A stretch of 44,923 nucleotides of DNA from a virus. The DNA lies in the IMG/VR virus record IMGVR_UViG_3300042946_000505, positions 1-44,923 of that record; one strand, written 5' to 3'. A program made the position numbers and the translations under genes. The notes beneath the pieces are model-generated. The model was not told the origin of the DNA. It saw only the letters and a list, made by a program, of their open reading frames with translations, and searched no databases. Within the stretch, counting starts at the first letter, position 1; every line of letters begins with the position of its first letter. Positions 1 through 44,923 of the stretch are shown here, piece after piece.

Positions 1-127
1 TCCCCTGCGACTCGCCGTGAAGTTGCTTCCGGCAATAGATGGTTCGCTAGACCTCACCGAGCAGGAGAGCCAGGACGTCATGGGCCTCGTTGTCGAGTTT
101 GCGTCAATGATCCGTGAAGCGAACGCC
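1..127. repeat. Left copy of 127-bp terminal direct repeat (circular genome overlap)
   Basis: The first 127 bases are identical to 44797-44923. A gene that starts at 44633 reads straight through the repeat and ends at 154, so the two copies are the same locus seen twice. The length of 127 matches a common assembler k-mer size, so I read this as overlap of a circular contig and not as a physical terminal repeat of the virion DNA. Confidence 0.93.
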
Positions 128-13583: not shown

Positions 13584-16500
13584 TTAGTAGATGCTCCCTT
13601 TTCTTGCCTGGCCGTCGTCGTTCGCCTGGAACTCAAGCGTTATCGGGCCGTTGCCAAAGTCTAGGTAGAGGGCACTTGGCCCAGTGAATGCCGTGTAGAT
13701 GAATCCCTCGCCATACCACGGCCACGAACCCTGCTCACTAAAGTTTGGGCGTCGATTCACCCAGCAGACCGAGTCGTGCGTGACGGCAGCATGAGGATGC
13801 TCGCACCATGAGCCGTGGTCATACAAGCAGATGTCCTCGCACGGGGTGTATTCGATGGCTGGATTTATAAGGTGAAGCGGTCCATTCGTGCATTTAGGGT
13901 ACAAGTTTCCGCCACCGATCACACTGCCGTCATCTCCGTAGACTAGAGGCGTGTACGCCCACTGCTTGTCGAAACTCTCCTTGGTGATCTGGGTAGGAGT
14001 GTTCGGTTGCTGAATGCCTTCTGCTGGCATCATCATTTCGTATTTCTTGAACAAGTCGTGCGGACAATAGTTGAGCGACCAAAGGTGATCGCTAGGCCGA
14101 GGCCTGCAAGCCTTCATCGGGTCTGGGCATTGCGACGACAGCGAGTCTCCGAAGCACTCTAGGTTCGGCAGGTCGCACAGGTGCGTGCGAGGAAAGGTAT
14201 AGCCGTCGCGATGGATTAAGTTCGGGAACTGCGCGCTAGTGATGTACCCTCCCTCTTTACGGTACATGCCGTAAGAGAAGTTCCAACTCGCCTGAGCAAG
14301 CCACAGGCGGTCGTGTTCGTGGAGGTTATACCACCATCCTTTTCCGTCGCCCCACGTGCCGGGCTCTGGCTCAACTGACGCAACTTGCCCGAAAGTGGAA
14401 CTGTCTATGTCCGTATCTACCTCGGCCTTGGCGTGAGCGTACATATCGTACCTATATCCAGACTTCACGCCGATCCTTAGTCCGTCCCACGCTGATAGGA
14501 CATGCACGCGAAGCGACGGATGTTCGACCCACGCCTTTGCGCTGGCGTCCCACCACGCATACCCAGCACCCGGCTGCGTGACTTCGTAACTCGCAATCCC
14601 TCCAAGCGGACGCGACGAAGGGTACTCAAAGCCTTTCATGACGAGAAATACAACGCCGAGCCAGTAATCAAGGATCGCCTCGTCGCCGCAAGTGACGATG
14701 CCGCCAGCGATAGATCCAGACGGAATGGCCTCGCAACGATCCTCTAGTTCCGACGCCTTCGCGACTGCAAGCAGAGGGGCCTCGTAGCCCGGAGGCGTGA
14801 TCGTCATGGTCACAGCGAGTAAGTCAGGGCCGTTCGCGGAGCCCGCAGGATCTCCAGCAGGAGCCCAGTACATGAGATCGGCCAGGGCAGCGTCCACTTG
14901 CTCCGCAGTCCCTGTAAGAGGTATGGCCTTTCGCCGGGCGCCGGATTCACCGATGGCGACCTCACCATGGGTCACGCTCGCCACCACCGAAACCTTCCAC
15001 TCTCGGCCCACCCTGTCTGGATTTGTTGACACGCCGCTTATATTGAGGCCATCGGCGTCGCCGCTCACTACATCCTCCTGCGGCCCAGGCACTTCCACGA
15101 AGTCGTTGCCGTAAGTAGCAGATGGAACTGAGGGGATCTCTAGCGGTGTCGCCGGCTCGACCTCGTCTGCGGAGATGATCCCTATCGTCACCACATCGCA
15201 CGAATCGAGCGGCTTGACGTCCTGCGGCTGCGTAATGTCCACGCGAAGCCGCGTCTCTACGTCATAAATCTCAAACGTAATCGGTATCGTGTTGATGCCG
15301 CAGTAGTTTGAGAAGCACGCGGAGTCTCCGCCGCAACTGCAATCTTGGTAGAAGCAGAAATAACTGTCGCAGATGTTCGCCGCCCACGCCTCCCGATGAG
15401 CAGACGCACGAAAGCCAACATGGCCTTGGTAGATAATCTTGCACCGCTCGATATTCATGACGTCCGAATACAGTCCGCGGCAGTCGATCGCTGCGAGCGT
15501 CGAGGATGTGCATGTCGGTGCGTTTGGGTGCTCCTCTTCGCACCACAGGTAGTTGCCCGTGTGCTGGTCGTCTCCATCGCCGTGCCGTGCGCCGCGCAGG
15601 TGCCAATCGAGGATGCCGCCTTTTTCGTCCACTTCCGTGACGATGGCGCGTGCTCTGGCGTACTCCGTCGCCCGACCGCCGCCAAGTTCTGGCGGCTGCT
15701 CTACGATCCTCCACTCGATCTGGTCGCCCTCTGAGTAGCCAGAGCCGCGCAAGGCGACTCCGTTTGGGTGGCATAAGAATCGTCCAAAAAACACCCTCTT
15801 GCCTTCCGGCCCGTTTTCCAGAATGACGCGCCGCACCTCTCCGTTCGTCCCAACCTCCGCAACGACGGCAGTCTGCGGCTCTGTAGAGTCCTTGTACTCA
15901 CCACCTCGAGCCGGGCTCTCGTAGAAGTCGATGGAGAACACATCGCCGAGAGACGCGCCAGACCCTGCCGTCTTCACAGACACGCTTGCCACTTGCCAGA
16001 GAGTGTCATTTGGCGTTGATCCTGTTCCTGGCACTGGCTCGATTACGAAGTCGATCTCTGCGCCGCCGCTGCCTTGGCTAGCGCGGAGTTTTGGAGGCAC
16101 AATGCCTCCCGGAGATTTGCACTTATACAGCCAGTTGTTGTAGTAGCCCTGCGCGTCTGGGATGTACTCGCGTGGGTTGCAAACGTAATCGACCGAGAAC
16201 CGCATGGTGCGTCCGTCGAAGTTTGCATCGACAAGTTCATCGCCGTCGCGATCCGCCCACTGCGTCTGAAACGGCCGAAGGTACACATCAAACAGCAAGT
16301 GAGCGTCCGTGAAGACCTCGCCTGCCTGCGGCGTGCGGCTGCGCGTGATGTTTGGGCGCAGGGTAGGGGGCATAACTGCGTCCCTCCTTCGCAGTACCGC
16401 CGTTTGCCCTTCAAGGTCGCCAGCATGCGCCCCAAGGATGTGGCAAGTCGGCACATAGTATTCAAACGTGTATACGCACGACGGAAGTTTTACGGTCCAG

Positions 16501-17108
16501 CCTTTGAGGGCTTGTTCAAACCCCTCGTCGGTCAGCGGCTGAAGATAGTCAATCATCCTCGCCCGCCAATACACGTCTCGTCCGTGAACAAACGAAATAT
16601 TGCCTCCGCAAAACTCGCCGCCCCAAGAGTACGCGCAATCCCAGGCCGAGTTGTTGAAGTAGATCGCATCCACGGATATCGGAGTCGGCGGGTCGCCCTG
16701 CATGCCGGGGAAGAACTCCAGCATCTCAGGATTCTGAATGCACAGTTGCGCTGGCCCTGCGTCAGCCGTGTAAGTAGTCTCCCTCGCCGGATACCACGTT
16801 AGGTCAAGCAGTCCGTCGGCAGTGCCGTTGTACCACGCGCTTCGGAGCGTGGTGAGGCAATCGCCATCATCCGCTCCACGACAGTTCACGCCCGGAAGCC
16901 CCGTGTGCGTGCTGTGGTAGACGCCGCCCCTACGCAGAGCCCACTCACCCCAGAAGCCTTTTAGAGTGACGGTAATCGACTCGGGCATGTCGCACTTCGC
17001 TGCAATACAGCAGCACTGCGGCTCTCCCCACAGGTTGTAGAGATACGACGCAGCGTTATCGCCGTGGTATCCGATCTTGAAATCGTCTTCGATTGTTCCG
17101 TACGGCAC
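13584..17108 (-). CDS. Giant Cys-rich distal tail / adhesion protein
   Basis: 1174 residues, GTG start one base after the preceding TAG. It is strikingly Cys-rich throughout (QCCCIAAKC near the N-terminus; CDSYFCFYQDCSCGGDSAC around two thirds along; several Cys pairs near the C-terminus), which is unusual for a cytoplasmically assembled virion protein. About residues 650-770 resemble a cadherin/bacterial Ig-like repeat (VSVVASVTHGEVAIG and ALADLMYWAP). It has no signal peptide. Its position distal to the tape measure suggests a tail-tip or receptor-binding structure. Confidence 0.8.
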   Translation of the reverse strand: MPYGTIEDDFKIGYHGDNAASYLYNLWGEPQCCCIAAKCDMPESITVTLKGFWGEWALRRGGVYHSTHTGLPGVNCRGADDGDCLTTLRSAWYNGTADGLLDLTWYPARETTYTADAGPAQLCIQNPEMLEFFPGMQGDPPTPISVDAIYFNNSAWDCAYSWGGEFCGGNISFVHGRDVYWRARMIDYLQPLTDEGFEQALKGWTVKLPSCVYTFEYYVPTCHILGAHAGDLEGQTAVLRRRDAVMPPTLRPNITRSRTPQAGEVFTDAHLLFDVYLRPFQTQWADRDGDELVDANFDGRTMRFSVDYVCNPREYIPDAQGYYNNWLYKCKSPGGIVPPKLRASQGSGGAEIDFVIEPVPGTGSTPNDTLWQVASVSVKTAGSGASLGDVFSIDFYESPARGGEYKDSTEPQTAVVAEVGTNGEVRRVILENGPEGKRVFFGRFLCHPNGVALRGSGYSEGDQIEWRIVEQPPELGGGRATEYARARAIVTEVDEKGGILDWHLRGARHGDGDDQHTGNYLWCEEEHPNAPTCTSSTLAAIDCRGLYSDVMNIERCKIIYQGHVGFRASAHREAWAANICDSYFCFYQDCSCGGDSACFSNYCGINTIPITFEIYDVETRLRVDITQPQDVKPLDSCDVVTIGIISADEVEPATPLEIPSVPSATYGNDFVEVPGPQEDVVSGDADGLNISGVSTNPDRVGREWKVSVVASVTHGEVAIGESGARRKAIPLTGTAEQVDAALADLMYWAPAGDPAGSANGPDLLAVTMTITPPGYEAPLLAVAKASELEDRCEAIPSGSIAGGIVTCGDEAILDYWLGVVFLVMKGFEYPSSRPLGGIASYEVTQPGAGYAWWDASAKAWVEHPSLRVHVLSAWDGLRIGVKSGYRYDMYAHAKAEVDTDIDSSTFGQVASVEPEPGTWGDGKGWWYNLHEHDRLWLAQASWNFSYGMYRKEGGYITSAQFPNLIHRDGYTFPRTHLCDLPNLECFGDSLSSQCPDPMKACRPRPSDHLWSLNYCPHDLFKKYEMMMPAEGIQQPNTPTQITKESFDKQWAYTPLVYGDDGSVIGGGNLYPKCTNGPLHLINPAIEYTPCEDICLYDHGSWCEHPHAAVTHDSVCWVNRRPNFSEQGSWPWYGEGFIYTAFTGPSALYLDFGNGPITLEFQANDDGQARKGSIY

Positions 17109-17109
17109 G

Positions 17110-17901
17110 CTAGCACTCCGCAGTAATGAGGACGTTTGTGCCGCCTATCGGAACGAAAGCGCAGTACCTGACGCGGTCGTAGTTGGGCGGGATTACTACG
17201 AACAAGTTCAGAACGCTAGCGGTGGATGGCTGGCCGTTGGAGTACAGCGGAACAGGGACGCCATTGGTGATCTGGAACAGGTTGACCGTAAGGGTCTGGC
17301 CCTTCTCCCATTGCTTGCCTTGGGCTGTGCTGTATGAGCCTAGTTGCACGCTACTCCCGCCGCCGCCGCCTCCAAATCGCACAAGGCCCCACTTCACGCC
17401 GGTGCCGGCCTCCACCCACAGCACCTGCGCGCCCTTCTCGCCGCCCTTTAGGTACGCCACTGAGCCTGCCGCAATGCCCGCGGTCTTTGGGTTTCCTTCG
17501 CTGGCGTTGATCTTGACCTGTACTACCCCGCCGACCGCAACGCGACCAATCGCGCCGTTGGCTATAGGCTCGACCGCCACCACGAACTGCTCTTCTGGAT
17601 TGGAAGGTTGAATGCCGGTGAGGCATGGCATATCCGAGAACGAGTCGAGTTGTGTCGTGCCGGAGGCAGGGTTTACGGAGATGCCAGACACTTGCAGCAC
17701 ACCCCACCGTGGCACTGCGACGCCGCTCATGTTCTTGCAGTAGATCCGCGTGTACGGAGAGCCGCCAAACTCCTGCGCAGGCCCAGACAGCTTCTGCCGC
17801 AGCACGATGTCCGCTGCGTCCTGGGCGCGATTCCACGCGCGAGCGGAGATCGCCGTATCGAGCGATTGCCCCTGCTCGATCCTGTAGTCGCCTCGCGCCA
17901 T
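17110..17901 (-). CDS. Virion structural protein (tail region)
   Basis: 263 residues; the ATG overlaps the upstream stop (TAATG). An N-terminal helix (DTAISARAWNRAQDAADIVL) is followed by a beta-rich body and a poly-Gly stretch (FGGGGGGSS) near residue 180, then a C-terminal beta domain. It lies between the distal tail protein and the giant Cys-rich protein, so a tail-tip or baseplate part is likely. No named family. Confidence 0.75.
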   Translation of the reverse strand: MARGDYRIEQGQSLDTAISARAWNRAQDAADIVLRQKLSGPAQEFGGSPYTRIYCKNMSGVAVPRWGVLQVSGISVNPASGTTQLDSFSDMPCLTGIQPSNPEEQFVVAVEPIANGAIGRVAVGGVVQVKINASEGNPKTAGIAAGSVAYLKGGEKGAQVLWVEAGTGVKWGLVRFGGGGGGSSVQLGSYSTAQGKQWEKGQTLTVNLFQITNGVPVPLYSNGQPSTASVLNLFVVIPPNYDRVRYCAFVPIGGTNVLITAEC

Positions 17902-18734
17902 TACCCCAACCCAAGGCCACTCAAGGCGGCCTTTCGATAGACTTCGTTCACGTATACGCCGATAGGCTTCCTGACGAGCGCGCTCTGCGTGTCATCGCCA
18001 GAGTACCGAACCCACAGGTATTCGTGGCCCTTCTTCGTGACGCCACTGATCCCTCCGACCGTCAGTCCATCCACGTTCTGCGACGCGATGAACTTGTATG
18101 TGAGCGACCAGGGGCCGTCGCCTTTTTCTGAGTCCCACTGCTGAGATCCGCTGCATCCTGCGAACAAGACCTCACCGGGCTGAAACCCTCGAAATCCGTC
18201 ACTGTTCACGCAGCCCGTCAGGCCAGCAACCGCCTTGATATAAGTGTCAGAGATGACGCCACTCGGGACGTCGTAGGTTTCTTGCCACGACAGGGCCGGA
18301 ACGATGATGTCCACACCCTTGACGCTGTCGGAGTCGGCCTCGATTGCGCAGTTCATATTGACTGCAGTAGTTGGATAGCGACGCTCCGCAAAGCCGCACG
18401 TTAGGTGTGTGGTAGCACCTGTCGTGTCAAATGAGCGGCCTCGCTTGGCAGGGGTTGTGCTAGGACCACCGTCTTGGCCCTCGGACTCGTATGTCGCTGT
18501 GACTTCCCAAACGTCACCGCCAAGGTGCGACACATCGTAGGACTTCACCAGCATCGTGATGCCAGCGAGGACGCGCATTCGGTAAGTGTTGAAGAACTGC
18601 ACTGCCTGCGCGTGAACAGCAGTGTCATCCGTGAACCCGGTTGCGCGATACTTGACCTCGCACGTTGACGTGTCTTTCGCACCAAGCCGCTTGATGGTCG
18701 CTGAACGCGATCCACTCTCCTCGTACCATCCCAT
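17901..18734 (-). CDS. Distal tail protein
   Basis: 277 residues, coupled to the tape measure by TAATG. Beta-rich with VSHLGGDVWEVTATYESEG early on, and a C-terminal half with GPWSLTYKFIASQNVDG and WVRYSG. Position immediately after the tape measure is where siphophages encode the distal tail protein; that is the basis for the call. Confidence 0.7.
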   Translation of the reverse strand: MGWYEESGSRSATIKRLGAKDTSTCEVKYRATGFTDDTAVHAQAVQFFNTYRMRVLAGITMLVKSYDVSHLGGDVWEVTATYESEGQDGGPSTTPAKRGRSFDTTGATTHLTCGFAERRYPTTAVNMNCAIEADSDSVKGVDIIVPALSWQETYDVPSGVISDTYIKAVAGLTGCVNSDGFRGFQPGEVLFAGCSGSQQWDSEKGDGPWSLTYKFIASQNVDGLTVGGISGVTKKGHEYLWVRYSGDDTQSALVRKPIGVYVNEVYRKAALSGLGLG

Positions 18735-21712: not shown

Positions 21713-22381
21713 TGCCGCCTCCGAATATGGCCTGCAGTTCCTCTGCTGTCGGGATGCGGGCGGGTCGCTTTAGGTAGGGATGGAAGTGATAGACGTCAAA
21801 CGGCTGTGCGTGCTGGGACTTGTGGCAGTTTGCGATGAGGGCTTGCAGTGCTGCCGTGTGCGTCCACTCGGCCTCCTGCTTTGCGTCACGCGCTGCTACG
21901 AGTTCCCTGAGACTCCAATCGTCGGGGTTGACTCCAAGGATGCCTGCGGCTTGATAGGCAACATCCCACCATTCACCGTATCCAGTTGGACGCTGTCGAT
22001 GTCTTTTACGGCTTTCTCCACTTGCTGGCTCACGATCACTTCCATGCGATCCAGTAGCCTTTTCATTAGAAGTCGCCGCGTGCTCGGGAAAAAACTTAGC
22101 AGTTCCTCCTTGAGAACTGCGATGGCCTCGGCAACTGCGTCACCGCGCAGGCCGTCGCCAAAGGATTCAAGGTCGATGCCCCTCTTTTCCGCATCCGCCT
22201 TCACGAGCGGCCACGCAACATCCAGCAAGTGCGTCGAGTTGCCGCCGAACATATCTATGGCCTTGCCGTTGGAGATGTCGGCAAAATCGAAGCCTGCGCT
22301 CGCCTGTATCTTCTTGAGCGACGAGCACGAAATATGAACGGTCCACGCCCTGCCCTGCTCGTCTTTGAACTCTCGCGCCAT
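21693..22381 (-). CDS. Tail assembly chaperone GT-type product by -1 frameshift
   Basis: Beyond the stop of the 161-residue protein, the -1 frame is open from well upstream to a TAG at 21693-21695. It encodes a convincing protein stretch: YGEWWDVAYQAAGILGVNP, then WSLRELVAARDAKQEAEW and ending in LQAIFGGGNVKRSD. This frame has no start codon of its own in the overlap. The likely slip is at the GTAAAAG near 22002-22008, where AAA can re-pair with AAA. The fused product is about 229 residues, matching the lambda G/GT arrangement before a tape measure gene, which it overlaps. Confidence 0.8.
21896..22381 (-). CDS. Tail assembly chaperone, short form (G-like)
   Basis: 161 residues, with GAGGTA before the ATG. 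A helical protein starting with MAREFKDEQGRAWTVHIS, followed by an acidic/hydrophobic core and LLDRMEVIVSQQVEKAVKDI near the end. The location between tail tube genes and tape measure, together with the overlapping -1 frame extension, identifies it. It is thought to coat the tape measure during tail assembly. Confidence 0.85.
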   Translation of the reverse strand: MAREFKDEQGRAWTVHISCSSLKKIQASAGFDFADISNGKAIDMFGGNSTHLLDVAWPLVKADAEKRGIDLESFGDGLRGDAVAEAIAVLKEELLSFFPSTRRLLMKRLLDRMEVIVSQQVEKAVKDIDSVQLDTVNGGMLPIKPQASLESTPTIGVSGNS

Positions 22382-22388
22382 GAATACC

Positions 22389-22727
22389 TCAGTATGATGA
22401 GTGACTGCTTTTGGCCGTGACGTTCACCGTAACGACATCGTCAAGCGGCTCGTTTCGCGTAATGTTTGTGACCACAAAACTCCCGCTCGCACCAGAGGCA
22501 CTTATGGTCACTAGGCTGCCATTCGCGAGCGTTGACCACACGCTCGGATCATCCACGAACTCTATATCGACCGTGGTCGTGTGCCCAATGCAGCGAGAGT
22601 ATACCCCTCGCTGCCCAAACGGATGCGACTCCACTTCCTTGGCCGACATGGAAACCGACACGCTACGGACTTGCGTGTTGTTCCCAATGCCGGTGATGGT
22701 GCAGTCCTTCCCTAGGGTGACTGCCAT
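22389..22727 (-). CDS. Major tail tube-like protein, paralogue 3
   Basis: 112 residues. It shares LGKDCTITG, VRSVSV and NEPLDDVVTVNVT with the two genes upstream. Beta-rich throughout, as tail tube proteins are. It is the last of three tandem copies directly before the chaperone gene, the position of the major tail protein in siphophages. Which copy forms the tube cannot be told from sequence alone. Confidence 0.8.
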   Translation of the reverse strand: MAVTLGKDCTITGIGNNTQVRSVSVSMSAKEVESHPFGQRGVYSRCIGHTTTVDIEFVDDPSVWSTLANGSLVTISASGASGSFVVTNITRNEPLDDVVTVNVTAKSSHSSY

Positions 22728-22739
22728 TTGAGTCTCGGC

Positions 22740-23036
22740 TTAGTTCGACTTGAGCGTGATCGTGTAGGTGCGAACGTCATCGAGTGGCTCGTTGCACGAG
22801 ATCGCAGTGACGATCATGCTTCCGGCGGTCGCGCCGACGGACGTGCTGTGGTGCAGGCACTCGATCTCTACGGTCTTTGACGTGAACGACGCAGCGAACT
22901 CCTTGTAGCCACCAGTGCTACCTCGAGCCGTCGTGTCGATCTGCTCGCACTCGTCCGTAATGGTCACGGAACGAATGTCACCGTTCGCGATGCCGGTGTA
23001 CGAAGAAACGATGTCTTTTCCAAGCCCGACGGCCAT
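22740..23036 (-). CDS. Major tail tube-like protein, paralogue 2
   Basis: 98 residues, middle of the tandem triplet. Shared features: GLGKDIVSSYTGI, DIRSVTITDECEQIDTTARG and CNEPLDDVRTYTITLKSN. It resembles paralogue 1 (IDATARGATA) more than paralogue 3 in the middle. The CDCTIT-type Cys of the other two is missing here. Confidence 0.8.
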   Translation of the reverse strand: MAVGLGKDIVSSYTGIANGDIRSVTITDECEQIDTTARGSTGGYKEFAASFTSKTVEIECLHHSTSVGATAGSMIVTAISCNEPLDDVRTYTITLKSN

Positions 23037-23045
23037 GGTCGCTCC

Positions 23046-23375
23046 TTATGTTCCTGTTGCCTGTTTCATCTTGCAAGTCACGTTGTATGTGACGATGTCA
23101 TCGAGCGGTTGATTCTGGGCCACGCTCGTTACGACGAACGACCCAGAAAGGCCTCCAGCCGCAATAGTCAGGGTCGCCCCAGCAGCAGGAGGACTATCGA
23201 CCATCTCGATCTCTACAGTGGCCTCTTTCCAGCCGGAAAGGTACTTCCGTGCTGTCGCCCCGCGAGCAGTGGCGTCGATTTGCGAGCCTTCGGCGGTTGC
23301 CGTCACCGAACGAACGGCAGTGTTCGTTACGCCTGTGATGGTGCAGTCTTTTCCGAGCACGTAAGTCACGGGCAT
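23046..23375 (-). CDS. Major tail tube-like protein, paralogue 1
   Basis: 109 residues, first of the triplet, with AAGGAG before the ATG. VLGKDCTITGVTNTAVRSVT at the N-terminus and NQPLDDIVTYNVTCK at the C-terminus mark the family. A near-palindromic TGTCTCA-type element lies upstream (23403-23416), so the triplet may have its own control point. Confidence 0.8.
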   Translation of the reverse strand: MPVTYVLGKDCTITGVTNTAVRSVTATAEGSQIDATARGATARKYLSGWKEATVEIEMVDSPPAAGATLTIAAGGLSGSFVVTSVAQNQPLDDIVTYNVTCKMKQATGT

Positions 23376-23433: not shown

Positions 23434-24084
23434 TCACGGCCCGCGGATCTGATTGCGAAACTGCGGGGCGATTTTTGCTAAGACCCGCGTAAGGCCCTGC
23501 TGTTGGTACTTTGAGGCCCTAACTTTGACGGTTCGCATGACGTTGATGGCGCGAAAGTTGTTTGTCGTTGGTCGCGGATTCATGAATGTGCCCACATAGA
23601 CCAGATTACTGCGGTTTCCTGTCCTTTTTAGGCCATATGCAACCTGTCTTGGTACTGGCCGCCCTCGATACCGCAAGTACATTCGCTGCGACTGCGAGCC
23701 TCCTTCCTCGTGCAGTTTGTAGAGGGTTGGCGAATAGCCGCTCTGCATCCTCCTTGGGCCAATCACCACGCTGTCCGTAGACTTATCGTAGGCAAAGGCC
23801 ATTGCCGAACGCATAAACCCATCGGAGTTCCTTGAGCTTCGCCAACTGGTGATCCGCCCGCTGGTGGCCTTTCTCTTGCGCCTCTCGATGAGCGGAAGGC
23901 CGCGAAACGTACCTATCGCCCTGTTCGATCCATTCTGCGACGCACGGCCTCGCAGGAACTGCTTCTGTACGCTCCGGTACACAAGCGCACCGGCCTTGGT
24001 TAGGGCTTTGGCCCTGCCCTTGCCGATTTGCTTGATCACGTGCGGCCTGTCGAGAAACCACTTTGTGGTGATTCTGACGCTCAC
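23434..24084 (-). CDS. Tail completion / minor tail protein (HK97 gp10-like position)
   Basis: 216 residues, strongly basic (many Arg/Lys), starting MSVRITTKWFLDRPHVIKQI. The N-terminal helical segment with KALTKAGALVYRSVQKQFL is typical of HK97-gp10-like neck/tail proteins. Position between the tail terminator candidate and the tail tube supports it. It overlaps the upstream gene by four bases. Confidence 0.75.
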   Translation of the reverse strand: MSVRITTKWFLDRPHVIKQIGKGRAKALTKAGALVYRSVQKQFLRGRASQNGSNRAIGTFRGLPLIERRKRKATSGRITSWRSSRNSDGFMRSAMAFAYDKSTDSVVIGPRRMQSGYSPTLYKLHEEGGSQSQRMYLRYRGRPVPRQVAYGLKRTGNRSNLVYVGTFMNPRPTTNNFRAINVMRTVKVRASKYQQQGLTRVLAKIAPQFRNQIRGP

Positions 24085-24509
24085 GGCCCCTTGAGCACCT
24101 TGTATGTGGCTTCGATGGTGGCTCGGTAGATGTTCTGCTCGTTCAGCATCTCGTCGGAGGACAAGTCCATTACCGCAGACAGAAACGCAGCCTGCCCGAC
24201 CTCCCCCGTCGAGAGCGTCAACTTCTGCCGCAGCCCGTCGAGGATCGACTCTGCCATGACGAATACAGCCTCGGCGTCAGCCTCTGTCGCAGCGTACTTC
24301 GCCACGACGATGCCGACTCGGTAGTCCACGATGACCGCCTGCCTGCTTGTGTTCTGGACATCCGCCCCACGCGGCGTAACCGCAATCATTAGGGACTGTA
24401 GTTTGGCTGCGTCCCATTCGTGGTAGTGGCGAACCACGACCGCAGCGTCTGGCACTTGCGGCATGGCGGCAACTTCACGCGCGACGGCGGCGGTAACTTC
24501 TGAAAGCAT
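24081..24509 (-). CDS. Tail terminator-like protein
   Basis: 142 residues. Alternating helix and strand with AVIVDYRVGIVVAKYA in the middle and a C-terminal strand (IYRATIEATYKVL). Length and order (between neck proteins and tail tube) match the tail terminator/completion proteins of siphophages. The assignment rests on gene order. Confidence 0.65.
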   Translation of the reverse strand: MLSEVTAAVAREVAAMPQVPDAAVVVRHYHEWDAAKLQSLMIAVTPRGADVQNTSRQAVIVDYRVGIVVAKYAATEADAEAVFVMAESILDGLRQKLTLSTGEVGQAAFLSAVMDLSSDEMLNEQNIYRATIEATYKVLKGP

Positions 24510-24956: not shown

Positions 24957-26312
24957 TTAGTTGGTGGTTAGAGTTACGCCGCGAGTAACCAGCGCCTTCG
25001 CGCTTGCGGCTGCTTTCACAACTGTTGCCGTGCCAGCCCCGGTAGCCGTTTGCGAAGTGATTGCGTAGGTAAACTGATTCGCGTTAACGACGGTGATGAC
25101 CGCATAGCGGTTTGCATTTGTCGCCGTCGTGATGCCGCTTACGCGCAGCACGTCGCCGGTCGCATACCCGTGCGCCGTCCAGTTAACCGTGCAAGTTGTT
25201 CCGGCGCACACGAAACTTGATCCCGCCGTGGTTGTTGAACCAAGGTTAGACGGGGCCGCGGACGTTCCGCCGCTTAGGTTGATAGTTTTTCCCGTGCCAT
25301 AACTTGTAGTTCCGTTCGTGCCGTCTAGGGACGCCATAACTTGCAGAATATGGTCTACGCTCGCGAGCGTCAGTGCGGCGCCTGTTATGGTCACAGTGCC
25401 GCCAACAGTCTTTAGTATGCCGCCCGTGGGAAGCGTGACGTTAGCCAGCGATGGCGAGGCCGTGGCTTGAAGGTTGAACCCAAGATATCGCAACGCTGGC
25501 AAAGACAAAGTTGTTAACGCCGTCATCGTTGTCATTGTAACGCTACCAAGCGGCACGACTTGCAATGAAGGCAGCGATACCGTGGTAAGTGCCGTCAGCC
25601 CGGTTGGGTTGATGCCGTTTCCAGCGTAAGACAGCAACGGGCAAGACAGCGTAGTTAGCGACGCCATACTGCTTGGGTTGAAGGTTGCGCCCACAGCCGT
25701 TAGCGACGGAAAAGAAAGCGTAGTAAGCGCGCCTAAACTGCTTGGACTACAGTTCTGGCCTACATAACTCAATGACGGCATTTCCAACTGCGTGAGCGAG
25801 GGCATGGAAGAAACGCCAAACTGTCCGCCTACATAACTCAACGCCGGAGATGACAGAGAGGTGACTAGATCAAACGCCGATGGAGAAAAGTTGCCGCCAA
25901 CATATTCCAACTGTGGAACGTGATGGCTTGTCAGCGCCGACAGAGCGCCCGGCGCGTAGTTGCCTACCACAGCCTTTAACGCCGGCAGCGACAGCGTAGT
26001 GAGCCCGGTAAGATTGTTTGGGGCTAAGTTGCCAGTGACTCCTTCTAGGTCATCGAACACCAAAGACAATACGCGATCGCCGCCCGTAAAAGACCACGCA
26101 GGTTCACTGTAAATAAAAGTTGCTATCCATTTTCCTGCGTACATAGAGCAAGCGACTCTGCTCGCCGCTCTTGAGATTTGCACTTGTTGCGGATTAACGA
26201 TGAAAAACAACTGCTCAGGAGAACCCGCGTACCAATCGCCGGACTTCCCGATCTTCAAACCGGAGAATCCAATGGGCGCCGGCCTAGAGTTTCCGATGAT
26301 GCCCTTGTTCAC
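24957..26312 (-). CDS. Repeat-rich fibre / receptor-binding protein (LRR-like)
   Basis: 451 residues. From about residue 100 to 300 there are eight or nine repeats of about 23 residues with consensus LTTLSLPSLxYVGxNFxPSS, predicted to form a leucine-rich or beta-solenoid rod. The C-terminal 130 residues form a separate Thr/Ser/Gly-rich domain (SLDGTNGTTSYGTGKTINLS). The DNA is clearly less GC-rich than the flanking genes (about 50% in a sampled line). Low GC and modular repeats suggest a horizontally acquired, fast-evolving host-recognition protein. Confidence 0.8.
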   Translation of the reverse strand: MNKGIIGNSRPAPIGFSGLKIGKSGDWYAGSPEQLFFIVNPQQVQISRAASRVACSMYAGKWIATFIYSEPAWSFTGGDRVLSLVFDDLEGVTGNLAPNNLTGLTTLSLPALKAVVGNYAPGALSALTSHHVPQLEYVGGNFSPSAFDLVTSLSSPALSYVGGQFGVSSMPSLTQLEMPSLSYVGQNCSPSSLGALTTLSFPSLTAVGATFNPSSMASLTTLSCPLLSYAGNGINPTGLTALTTVSLPSLQVVPLGSVTMTTMTALTTLSLPALRYLGFNLQATASPSLANVTLPTGGILKTVGGTVTITGAALTLASVDHILQVMASLDGTNGTTSYGTGKTINLSGGTSAAPSNLGSTTTAGSSFVCAGTTCTVNWTAHGYATGDVLRVSGITTATNANRYAVITVVNANQFTYAITSQTATGAGTATVVKAAASAKALVTRGVTLTTN

Positions 26313-28277: not shown

Positions 28278-28643
28278 TCAGGAAATGGCCTTGGAGTGAA
28301 TGCGAACCGCAGTCCTGCTTGCGTCTGCCCATTTCCATATTGGCGCACCGCGAGGCGCACAGACATCAAACGTAACAGACTCGCCGTTCAGCGTCTCAGT
28401 GATGCGGTCGCCTCGCTGCGGCTCTTCCACAGGCAAGTCGGCCACTGCGATCACGAAGTCGCGGCTCTCCCAACGCTCGATGACGCCCATCTCCGACTGC
28501 GTCTCAAACACGGTCTGCGATGCTGTTGCGATGCAGGGGGCTGTGACGCCGCCGCTGCTGTACGCAACGTATCGCGAAACGTGATTGCGACGCATCCCGG
28601 TCAGCCACAGGGCGGCATCTGCGATGACGTCACCCACGGCCAC
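28278..28643 (-). CDS. Head completion / neck protein candidate
   Basis: 121 residues, starting MAVGDVIADAALWLTGMRRN, with EPQRGDRITETLNGESVTFD near the C-terminus. That 'xGDxI' strand pattern is seen in head-tail connector proteins of the lambda FII/stopper type. Gene order, two genes after the capsid, supports a head-completion role. Confidence 0.65.
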   Translation of the reverse strand: MAVGDVIADAALWLTGMRRNHVSRYVAYSSGGVTAPCIATASQTVFETQSEMGVIERWESRDFVIAVADLPVEEPQRGDRITETLNGESVTFDVCAPRGAPIWKWADASRTAVRIHSKAIS

Positions 28644-29019: not shown

Positions 29020-30906
29020 TCAGGCACCGGCCATCTTCACCGCACCACGAGGCTCGACCTTGGCGACGCCGAAGTCGAAGTAGCCTCGCATCTGGATGCC
29101 GAGCAACGAGAAGTCGAGGTCGGCCTGCTCCACCGTTGGCTGTTGCACGCCGTTGAGGAACGCCACCTCGATGGTGGACAGGTCCGCTGGCGAAGCCAGG
29201 AGGTAGTAGGCAGACGACGAGTTGCCGGTGAACATCGCGTTGGAGAGGTACGGACTCGTGAGAATCTCGTACTTCCCGGCGTGCGGGTTCGCGGTCGGGT
29301 ACTTCGTGCTGCTGGTAGTGTCACGAATCTCGGTGCTGTTCATGAGTTGAAGAGCACGGGCGTTGAGTGCGGTCGGCACCAGCAGGATCTGGGGCGATAC
29401 GGCCAGCGGGAAGCCGTCATCGTCCGTCTGGTTAAGGAACAGGAGTTCCGCAGCCGTGATCCCGTCAACACCGAACGCAGTCCCAGCACCGCTGGAGAAG
29501 TTCTTATTGCCGCTAGCAAAGAAGGACGAGTTGTTGAGGAACTCGGCCCAGAAGACTTCGTTCAACTTGAGGGCCGCACCCCGCCCGATTCTGGTCGGTA
29601 CCGCGGTGAGGGCCGACAGGTCATCGTTGATGATGTCTTCGCGGCTCAGGTTCGTGGCGATTCCGTAAGTCCGTGCGGCGTTCTGGTACTTGACGTTGCC
29701 AGCGCTCGCCATGCGGAACTCGGACTTGCCGCTCATCTCCTCAAACTTGAAGCCGCCGGTGAGGCGGTACGAGTTGACGGTCTTGAAGTCCTGCACAGAG
29801 CGAGTCGTGCTGATCCGCGTCCACGACGTGTCTACGGTCGTGAAACCCTGCAGAAGGAACTTGTTGACCGTGGCCGACAGGATGTCCGCGATGTCGTGCG
29901 TGGCGAACGCTGCACGAAGGATCGGGCGGCTGTACGAATCGTCGCGGAACGTGGTGCGACCCTCGTAGCCGTTGGCCCGAGCGGCCTCGATCAGCATTTC
30001 GCCGAGGCCGATGCCGCCTTTGTACTTCTTGTGCGCGGCCTCGAGGATCGCAGGCGAGAACTGCTTCTCGACGTCCGGCAAGCGACCGCTCTGGCAGGCA
30101 GCCGCCATGAGCACATCGCTGAACGACTCGCGATCTTGCTCGACATGCACGGCTGGAGCAGACGGGCGCGATGCTCGCACTGACGCGACGGCCTGTTCGG
30201 CCTGGGCGGCGATCACCTTGGCGGCGATGCGCTCGACTAGCGCGTCCTCGTTGATCGTCGGGGTTGCCGGGGTGGCAGCAGCGACGGTTTCGGTGGCATC
30301 GACAGTCTCGCGGCTCTCGTCCGACATGGAACCTTCCTCCGGGTGTACCGCCGAAGCGGCAAGAGAAGCAGACGTGTTATCGTCCGCACCTAGGGTGACT
30401 ACCGAAACCTCACGAAGCCTGGAAGCACGGATAATCCGAGCAGGCCCCGTGACCGATTGACCGTTGACCATGGCCGTTTCGCCTTGCGGCAACTTCTCGC
30501 TGCGGACAACGTCCGCGCCGATGGAAGCCTGCCACTGGAAACCGCGTTCAGCCAGGGCGATTACCTTGTCTGCACTTGCGTTGCCACCGATCATCTCGGC
30601 TTCGACAACGAGATTGCGGCCCTCGACGCGGATGTCGGTCGTTTGACCAAGGATCGCGTCGAGTTCGTAGGAGTGCTGGAGCAGGATCGGCCGACGCTTG
30701 TTGGCCCACGACAACCCCTGCAAGTCTACGATCACCGGCTCTCGCGACCACTCCTGACGAATGATTCCGCCCGTGTAGGCGTTGACCTTGAATCGACGCG
30801 GGCCTTGCGGCTGTAGCACCCCCGTAGAGGTAGCACTGGCCGCGGCCTGCACAGAGTCAGGGCCTTCAAGGTAGATGTCAGCGGTGAGCGAGAACTGATT
30901 GCTCAT
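29020..30906 (-). CDS. Prohead protease-major capsid fusion protein
   Basis: 628 residues from the ATG at 30906; no strong ribosome binding site is visible. Residues about 40-190 resemble a phage prohead protease (WANKRRPILLQHSYELDAIL, AERGFQWQASIGAD, ASRLREVSVVTLGAD, in which the His and Ser of the catalytic set can be proposed). A Thr/Ala/Glu linker follows at about 200-270. The C-terminal part from about 270 is a major capsid protein: FRDDSYSRPILRAAFATHDI, LLVPTALNARALQLMNSTEI and DLDFSLLGIQMRGYFDFGV. Self-release of the capsid domain would be expected. Confidence 0.88.
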   Translation of the reverse strand: MSNQFSLTADIYLEGPDSVQAAASATSTGVLQPQGPRRFKVNAYTGGIIRQEWSREPVIVDLQGLSWANKRRPILLQHSYELDAILGQTTDIRVEGRNLVVEAEMIGGNASADKVIALAERGFQWQASIGADVVRSEKLPQGETAMVNGQSVTGPARIIRASRLREVSVVTLGADDNTSASLAASAVHPEEGSMSDESRETVDATETVAAATPATPTINEDALVERIAAKVIAAQAEQAVASVRASRPSAPAVHVEQDRESFSDVLMAAACQSGRLPDVEKQFSPAILEAAHKKYKGGIGLGEMLIEAARANGYEGRTTFRDDSYSRPILRAAFATHDIADILSATVNKFLLQGFTTVDTSWTRISTTRSVQDFKTVNSYRLTGGFKFEEMSGKSEFRMASAGNVKYQNAARTYGIATNLSREDIINDDLSALTAVPTRIGRGAALKLNEVFWAEFLNNSSFFASGNKNFSSGAGTAFGVDGITAAELLFLNQTDDDGFPLAVSPQILLVPTALNARALQLMNSTEIRDTTSSTKYPTANPHAGKYEILTSPYLSNAMFTGNSSSAYYLLASPADLSTIEVAFLNGVQQPTVEQADLDFSLLGIQMRGYFDFGVAKVEPRGAVKMAGA

Positions 30907-30925
30907 ACGATTTGGTGTACCGTAT

Positions 30926-30939
30926 TGTCTCAAATGTGA
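30926..30939 (+). promoter_or_regulatory. TGTCTCA operator-like element 7, dyad form
   Basis: TGTCTCAAATGTGA, extending to ACA, is a near dyad (TGTC.CA..TG.GACA). It lies between the capsid gene start and the end of the small gene at 30930-31064, overlapping that gene's stop codon. Confidence 0.6.
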
Positions 30940-31064
30940 CAAACGCTTTTTCTTGTGCAAGCAGTCGTGCATTGCCTTGTGCGGCTTGGTCCATCCACGA
31001 ACTCAACGCCAAGAACGTCTTCGTCATCTTCGCCGTCGCTAAAAAGATCCTCAGAACTCAGCAC
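30930..31064 (-). CDS. Small acidic protein between portal and capsid genes
   Basis: 44 residues with a GTG start at 31064. A perfect AGGAGG lies seven bases upstream, inside the end of the portal gene, and the portal stop is two bases before the GTG. The sequence starts MLSSEDLFSDGEDDEDVLGV, is very acidic at first and Cys/Arg-containing at the end (CTTACTRKSVCHI). Unknown function; possibly a small head assembly factor. Confidence 0.6.
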   Translation of the reverse strand: MLSSEDLFSDGEDDEDVLGVEFVDGPSRTRQCTTACTRKSVCHI

Positions 31065-36475: not shown

Positions 36476-37729
36476 CTAAAAGAGGCCCGCGTCTTTCCGA
36501 GCCTTGTGATACGAATCGAACCAAACGTACTTCGGCCCCTTGGGCAGATTTGGCTCAAGCCACGTCCTGTTCTCGCCGCCGTAGATGATGATCTTTGCCG
36601 TCTTGATTCTTTCGCACCATTGGTGCATGCCACGGCAGAACAACTGCTTGCCCTTTTCATCATCCCTGTATGTCCTGCACTGCACCATTGCGCACGGCAC
36701 CTCTTTCGGGATGCCAATGAAAATCCATTCCCAACTCGCTTCGTCCGCGATGTTGATGTTTGGGATTATCTTGTGTCCAGCCTCCTGCCAGTACCGAGAG
36801 CACCACCTCGCTCGATAGGTGTTCCAGATATTGAATGCTGCTGGCTCGTCGGCCCAGGTCGAGAAGTCGGGCATCACTAGAGCGCCCGGCTTGATAACGC
36901 GCATCTTGTCGAGGAAGTTTGCGGACTTCTCCCAGATCGCGGACTCAAACCGATCATCGCTCGCGTAGAAGTTGATTACGTGGCCGGTCATTCGCTGATC
37001 GACGCCAACAGAACTCCAGCAGATCATCTGCGTCGGGGCTTCGTCGCCGTCCTTGATGTATATCTTGCGAATGTCGCCGTCCCACAACATGCTCGGTATC
37101 AGGTCTGGAAAGCCGAGCCAGTTGCTCGATGAAAAAATCGCGTCTTCGCGAAAGGTCGTGATCGAGTCCTGCTCGACGTTCGGCTCCTCTGGCTCCTCGT
37201 CATCCTCGATCTCTTCTTCGAGGTAGTTCTTGACCGGCTCGTCGCCTCGCACTGTTGGGGCTAGTTCTGGGGCCTGAGTCTCGGTCGCACTCGCCAGCGT
37301 TGGCCTGTCTGCCTCAAAGACCTTCTCGGCTAGCGGCGACAGCAGGGCATCCACCTCGTGCGTGTCGAATGCGAGGCCGCTGAAATCATTCCAGCCCATA
37401 TCGGACAGGGCCTTGAGTTCCGCCGAGAGCAGGCCAACGTCCCACTCTGCGATCTCGTTCGTTTTGTTGTCTGCGATTCGATACGCGGCGACCTTGTCTG
37501 CCGTCAGGTCTTTTGCCACCAGCACCGGCACCTTGTCTTCGCCTAGTTTGATGGCGGCAAGGTATCGCGTGTGACCAACGATGATGACCTTGTGTTGGTC
37601 AACGACTATCGGCTGACGCCATCCGAACTGACGAATGGATGCCGCGACGGCATCGACTGCCTTCTCGTTGCGTCGAGGGTTCTTGCCATACGGCGCGATC
37701 GCGTCGAGCGCGAGCATTTCCACTTTCAT
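36476..37729 (-). CDS. ParB/Srx-domain protein fused to DUF4417
   Basis: 417 residues. Residues 1-100 are a ParB N-terminal-like domain (APYGKNPRRNEKAVDAVAAS, RQPIVVDQHKVIIVGHTRYL with the GHTR motif, and IADNKTNEIAEW). An acidic linker (EEEIEDDEEPEEP, about 170-185) leads to a C-terminal DUF4417 domain (INFYASDDRFESAIWEKS, MPDFSTWADEPAAFNIWNTY, ARWCSRYWQEAGHKIIPNIN, IIIYGGENRTW). In many phages a ParB domain is instead fused to a DNA methylase. The joint function is unknown; DNA cleavage or modification is possible. Confidence 0.85.
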   Translation of the reverse strand: MKVEMLALDAIAPYGKNPRRNEKAVDAVAASIRQFGWRQPIVVDQHKVIIVGHTRYLAAIKLGEDKVPVLVAKDLTADKVAAYRIADNKTNEIAEWDVGLLSAELKALSDMGWNDFSGLAFDTHEVDALLSPLAEKVFEADRPTLASATETQAPELAPTVRGDEPVKNYLEEEIEDDEEPEEPNVEQDSITTFREDAIFSSSNWLGFPDLIPSMLWDGDIRKIYIKDGDEAPTQMICWSSVGVDQRMTGHVINFYASDDRFESAIWEKSANFLDKMRVIKPGALVMPDFSTWADEPAAFNIWNTYRARWCSRYWQEAGHKIIPNINIADEASWEWIFIGIPKEVPCAMVQCRTYRDDEKGKQLFCRGMHQWCERIKTAKIIIYGGENRTWLEPNLPKGPKYVWFDSYHKARKDAGLF

Positions 37730-44632: not shown

Positions 44633-44923
44633 ATGTCTATCAACGTGGATTGGCTCGGTGACGGTTGGACTTACTACACAAACGAGGAGCGGCAAGCGAT
44701 GGAAGCGAAGAAGAACCAGCAGGAAGCAGAGCAGCGGCGACAGAAGGCAATGAACCAACTGGCCGTGGAGTGCGTGGCGTGGTCGTGCGTACCCATTCCC
44801 CTGCGACTCGCCGTGAAGTTGCTTCCGGCAATAGATGGTTCGCTAGACCTCACCGAGCAGGAGAGCCAGGACGTCATGGGCCTCGTTGTCGAGTTTGCGT
44901 CAATGATCCGTGAAGCGAACGCC
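44633..44923 (+). CDS. Small early protein crossing the contig join (5' part)
   Basis: ATG at 44633. The frame is open to the last base (97 codons) and continues at position 128 of the window for eight more codons to a TGA at 152-154, giving a 105-residue protein. The N-terminus is MSINVDWLGDGWTYYTN, followed by a charged Glu/Lys/Gln-rich helical segment (about residues 18-40) and a hydrophobic, helical C-terminal half. I do not recognise the family. It is the fourth of a run of small plus-strand genes, each preceded by a TGTCTCA element; here the element and a 16-bp hairpin lie in the leader (44557-44612). Confidence 0.8.
   Translation, partial: MSINVDWLGDGWTYYTNEERQAMEAKKNQQEAEQRRQKAMNQLAVECVAWSCVPIPLRLAVKLLPAIDGSLDLTEQESQDVMGLVVEFASMIREANA
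44797..44923. repeat. Right copy of 127-bp terminal direct repeat
   Basis: Exact copy of 1-127. It shows that the molecule is circular or circularly permuted, with about 44796 unique bases. Confidence 0.93.

Follow-up and report, generated by a model that had tools for sequence, protein, structure and literature searches.

Phage tail tubes are textbook stacks of homohexameric rings, and a tube made from a single gene is the usual arrangement without being strictly defining, as T4-like and SPP1 tails already bend this rule. The locus described here raises the question of how a virus uses three related tail tube-like genes that lie side by side. The window, by which is meant the whole stretch of DNA that was analysed, is a 44,923-bp virus contig (IMG/VR record IMGVR_UViG_3300042946_000505) with an exact 127-bp direct repeat at both ends (window 1-127 and 44797-44923), which suggests that the contig is essentially complete, or a circularly assembled genome. 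A first-pass annotation had described the three genes as tandem paralogues of a tail tube-like protein sharing an LGKD...VRSV...PLDD framework, and had suggested that they could build a hetero-oligomeric tube or provide decorating or alternative subunits.

The three genes, referred to here as A, B and C in the order of their transcription, are adjacent, with spacers of 9 and 12 nt (Table 1). In the alignment, the other two proteins are 40 and 48% identical to the one listed first, and when the whole contig is searched with B only these three genes are matched, with values of 1.4e-62, 1.9e-16 and 5.5e-9; the similarity between A, B and C is therefore far beyond chance, and no fourth copy is found by sequence. 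The LGKD and PLDD motifs are present in all three proteins, the VRSV motif is found in A and C and reads IRSV in B, and a segment of about 10 residues of A and C is absent from B. Clearly, as established by these computations, A, B and C are tandem paralogues, and the framework described in the first-pass annotation holds with the IRSV variant of B.

Table 1. The three tube paralogues of the window and the genes next to them.
Feature	Position	Strand	Basis
Paralogue A, 109 aa, predicted tail-tube fold	23046..23375	-	ORF with TAAGGAG site; model, Foldseek, hhalign
Paralogue B, 98 aa	22740..23036	-	phrog_1407 major tail protein; hhalign
Paralogue C, 112 aa, predicted tail-tube fold	22389..22727	-	Model, Foldseek, hhalign
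142 aa, probable tail terminator, distinct from the triplet	24081..24509	-	PHROG matches of the family, fixed position
216 aa, probable tail-completion protein	23434..24084	-	Pfam match of the family, fixed position
161 aa, tail-assembly-chaperone position	21896..22381	-	Flanked by the tube genes and the tape measure in nearly all loci
Tape measure protein, 992 aa	18734..21712	-	phrog_1533 E 5e-79, PF10145 E 2.5e-48
277 aa, distal-tail (Dit) position, independent anchor	17901..18734	-	After tape measure in related loci

In single-sequence scans against PHROG, the E-value is 4.1e-6 for B against phrog_1407 and 6.9e-4 for A, and the best major-tail match (8.3e-9) is that of a relative of C; in such scans none of the three proteins reaches the curated Pfam cut-offs. 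Class profiles built from 52 triplets have also been compared by hhalign with a profile of the single-copy tubes of isolated phages (R4C, RcRhea, CRP-406, HTVC111P, MED4-184, phi3LM21 and DSL-LC06), giving probabilities of 96.7% (E 3.9e-10) for class A, 93.2% (E 3e-7) for class B and 96.7% (E 3.1e-10) for class C; the neighbouring gene families reach 0.1% against the same profile. Class B is linked to classes A and C with a probability above 99%. The AlphaFold2 models of A and C (pLDDT 69.7 and 74.8, respectively) both have solved tail tubes as their best Foldseek matches (E about 2e-5 for both). The top match of C is the R4C tail tube (PDB entry: 8gtb; E 2e-5), against which C has a VIA Z of 8.6 and A one of 7.9. 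The fold matches of the two models include the tail tubes of R4C, monocin, RcGTA, phage 812, lambda and SPP1, and also baseplate and neck tube-like proteins. This beta-sandwich fold is common to Dit and hub domains, and hence the fold alone cannot assign a protein to the tube body. A sequence search of the PDB returns weak, unrelated matches only. Two relatives of A (L042:5671-5985 and L018:4873-5190) have sub-threshold matches to PF05354, the lambda FII head-tail attachment family, perhaps reflecting an old link between the stopper and tube folds.

The order of the genes in related loci is 142 aa, 216 aa, A, B, C, 161 aa, tape measure, 277 aa and 263 aa, apart from end-of-contig genes that are cut off, such that the triplet sits between the neck/terminator genes on one side and the chaperone position and tape measure on the other. 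The assignment of the 142 aa family as a probable terminator comes from phrog_123, matched by 2 of 15 members (8.6e-4), and phrog_179, matched by one of the 15 (1.8e-3), and that of the 216 aa family from PF05069 (Phage_tail_S), matched by one of 12 members (5e-4); the window's own 142 aa and 216 aa proteins do not match the PHROG terminators and PF05069, respectively. The 161 aa protein has no convincing family match in profile searches, and profile comparison did not show chaperone identity for it; likewise, the 277 aa protein has no informative family match. Tape measures of about 500 to 1175 aa occur across the lineage alongside a fixed tube triplet, and tail length is therefore independent of the three subunits.

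Thus, tube-type sequence for A, B and C and the tube fold for the models of A and C are established computationally, and the profile matches of all three, the fold matches of A and C and the synteny together support the tail-tube identity that the first-pass annotation had put forward.

Some other genes of the window, all on the minus strand, deserve mention. A 650 aa protein (29020-30972) matches families of both head maturation proteases and major head proteins (phrog_4523 and phrog_133) and is probably the product of a fused protease-capsid gene. A 121 aa head-tail joining protein (28278-28643; PF25138, 1.2e-25) is encoded upstream of the tail genes, several genes away. Inside the head-tail cluster, a 451 aa protein (24957-26312) has regular leucine-rich-like repeats (LTTLSLPAL motif) with sub-threshold LRR matches, and it might be an adhesin or a decoration protein. 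The hub or tail-tip position is occupied by a 1174 aa protein (13584-17108) without a PHROGs or Pfam match, and a 417 aa ParB-like nuclease (phrog_940, 5e-72) is encoded at 36476-37729.

The constancy of the triplet has been studied in three overlapping sets of IMG/VR loci, anchored on relatives of B, on relatives of A and on the 277 aa Dit-position protein. The B-relative set has three copies in 76 loci (in one of them, L064, A is truncated by the contig start) and two copies in 7 loci, all 7 being cut at a contig edge, and in the A-anchored set there are three copies in 73 loci, with 3 loci cut. For the 277 aa protein, 557 relatives are reported in IMG/VR; the third set comprises the best 80 of them and is unbiased because the tube genes played no role in its selection. 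Exactly A-B-C is found in 50 of these contigs, and the other 30 start inside or after the tube genes, meaning that the arrangement is present in 50/50 of the site-spanning loci reached via this gene. In every site-spanning IMG/VR locus examined there is exactly A-B-C in the same order, with no copy lost, gained or reordered, and all examined contigs with fewer than three copies lose them at a contig edge. The invariance of the triplet is thereby established by computation. Pooling gives 116 distinct triplets, or 70 when clustered at 90% identity and 31 at 70%; the copies in them are single-domain proteins, mostly of 97-125 aa, and no tube-tube fusion is seen. The gaps are 8-62 nt between A and B and -1 to 29 nt between B and C, and a Shine-Dalgarno match, somewhat weaker on average for C, is recognisable for nearly every gene; the tight spacing and these matches suggest coupled expression. 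No member of the lineage is found in INPHARED when A, B, C or the Dit-position protein is the query, scans of bacterial and archaeal genomes find no relative, and a described phage with three tube paralogues was not found in databases or in the open-access literature. The three tube genes are kept by a whole lineage of uncultivated siphophage-like viruses, and they belong to the tail-tube superfamily, of which the three-gene arrangement would be a variant.

In a tree of all 348 proteins from the 116 triplets, B and C are each monophyletic (support 0.949 and 0.979, respectively) and A forms the rest of the tree, with 108 of 116 members in one clade. The monophyly of B and C places the triplication before the lineage, and a recent local duplication is excluded, since the paralogue classes predate the lineage and do not mix on the tree. 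This goes beyond the first-pass annotation: the triplet is ancient and is fixed throughout the lineage. The classes also differ in architecture, as the strand-forming segment of the A and C models is missing from B and most B members have a longer hinge loop. When residues are mapped to R4C via a remote alignment, in which positions are approximate, essentially every A, B and C protein retains the aspartate mapped to the lumen (R4C D108). At the inter-layer plug position of the same mapping (R4C M38), every B has Arg and every C has Phe or Tyr; A has mostly Phe or Leu outside the window clade and Arg within it. The contact residues are most distinct in class C.

The single-copy tubes of R4C (vB_DshS-R4C, a Dinoroseobacter phage), RcRhea, CRP-406, phi3LM21 and HTVC111P resemble the triplet in fold and in size class (about 130 aa, without a decoration domain), their tube gene also precedes the chaperone and tape measure, and their profile matches A, B and C; however, in these phages a single tube gene is annotated at the place that is occupied by three here. 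The R4C tube consists of homohexamers, 120 copies in 20 rings, in which strand 5 joins strand 2 of the neighbour, a long loop plugs into the next ring and acidic residues line the lumen (PMC10276861). The RcGTA tail tube (PDB entries: 6tba and 6toa), among the top matches of A and C, has the same bare single-domain fold and is built of five hexameric rings of a single protein type (PMC8718954). T5 pb6 and phiCbK deviate, like the triplet, from six identical single-domain subunits per ring, having two tube domains fused in each chain and trimeric rings (PMC8718954), in contrast to the three separate single-domain proteins here. SPP1 shares with the present proposal that more than one tube polypeptide is used per tail, gp17.1 and gp17.1* having one domain in common, to which a frameshift adds a C-terminal domain in one of the two forms, at about 3:1 (PMC8718954).

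The likeliest use of the triplet is a three-component tube, with mixed rings as the likeliest form. There is about an even chance, in our judgement, that A, B and C are obligate, non-interchangeable tail-tube subunits, derived by triplication and co-assembling most likely as mixed rings. A single short tail-tube gene would have been triplicated before the lineage diversified, after which the copies would have specialised; being encoded in one tight gene cluster, the three proteins would probably be made in similar amounts and would co-assemble around the tape measure as heterohexameric rings, the simplest of which would have two copies of each subunit, with A and B as the likeliest adjacent pair. 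That each ring is a fixed A-B-C-A-B-C heterohexamer in an obligate three-component polymer is a more tentative proposal, with the balance somewhat against it. Of the mechanisms suggested in the first-pass annotation the hetero-oligomeric tube is the best supported, while presence in the virion, similar amounts, mixed rings and their composition and stoichiometry are what we infer. A precedent for paralogues of the tube superfamily in one ring is given by the Hcp proteins of type VI secretion, which have the same fold superfamily as tail tubes and form heterohexamers, as in Hcp2-Hcp3 of Bacteroides fragilis (PDB entry: 9vne; PMC13323088). That entry has two paralogues of a secretion system, tied to effector loading and not to a DNA conduit, and it is proposed that the triplet works like the heterohexameric Hcp tubes without being classed within that system.

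Covariation between the subunits, calculated from 61-65 loci with about 30 effective sequences and with errors from the resampling spread rather than a phylogenetic null, is as strong for A-B as within A or within B. Without the window clade it is 2.95 for A-B, 1.52 for B-C and 1.14 for A-C, compared with 0.51-0.76 for the tube-nontube controls (tube-to-chaperone-position and tube-to-277 aa blocks), and the ranges are 2.5-2.95, 1.0-1.5 and about 1.15, respectively; with the window clade included, only A-B is clearly above the controls, and B-C and A-C do not clearly exceed them. In mean-field couplings, the within-protein controls failed to recover the expected hairpin contacts. These values hint at direct contact between subunits, strongest for A-B, although the A-B signal may partly be entropy or linkage; like the class-specific contact residues, they would fit two or more paralogues in one ring. 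If the A-B, B-C and C-A contacts of mixed rings were equal, their covariation should be equal too, and the clear excess of A-B counts against such rings.

The main rival to the three-component tube is a division of labour in which one of the three would serve as major tube subunit, with the others making single specialised rings, at the baseplate end (initiator) and at the head end, the initiator being presumably comparable to T4 gp48/gp54 or Afp5/PVC5; we consider this unlikely, albeit a serious contender. T4 (gp19, gp54 and gp48) and eCIS (Afp1 and Afp5) particles also have several tube-fold proteins, but the extra ones are single baseplate rings, reportedly including Afp5 of Afp, and not the products of three short adjacent genes. 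Contractile systems are known to have initiator rings of the tube fold, gp48 and gp54 being hexameric hub rings (PMC8718954), and in agreement with end rings baseplate and neck proteins are among the fold matches, profiles did not show Dit identity for the 277 aa protein, and the lower B-C and A-C covariation fits one copy acting apart. Invariance is equally expected wherever all copies are essential. On the other hand, terminator-like and completion-like proteins have genes of their own, which favours the three-component tube, the lumen aspartate is kept by all three classes, and start signals and spacing are similar even though ring counts would differ tens of fold.

It is rather improbable that A and B form the tube body, in mixed or alternating rings, with C as a special ring or minor component. 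The excess of A-B covariation in the set without the window clade, the distinct contact residues of C and its weaker average Shine-Dalgarno match point this way, but the effective sequences are few, the A-B signal has the possible other sources given above, C equals A as a tube by fold and the best PHROG major-tail match comes from a relative of C. That the extra copies are redundant, mutually replaceable subunits, used for example under different conditions or hosts, is very improbable, since the common fold and gene cluster are outweighed by three ancient, non-mixing classes with class-specific near-invariant residues that always occur together in one order, without a site-spanning locus in which a copy is lost, gained or moved. 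A decorating role, also raised in the first-pass annotation, finds no support and is rejected, as A, B and C are bare tube-size single domains without an extra domain.

The presence of three related tube genes, compared with one in well-studied long-tailed phages, suggests a DNA-delivery tube made of three different building blocks. If the A-B-C-A-B-C ring is correct, it would be, to our knowledge, the first DNA-conducting phage tube that is asymmetric by gene content, and the tube ring would be divisible into distinct positions, as with Hcp in type VI secretion. This would raise the question of the benefit, which may lie in symmetry matching to a trimeric tape measure and hub, in defined bending or in ordered assembly.
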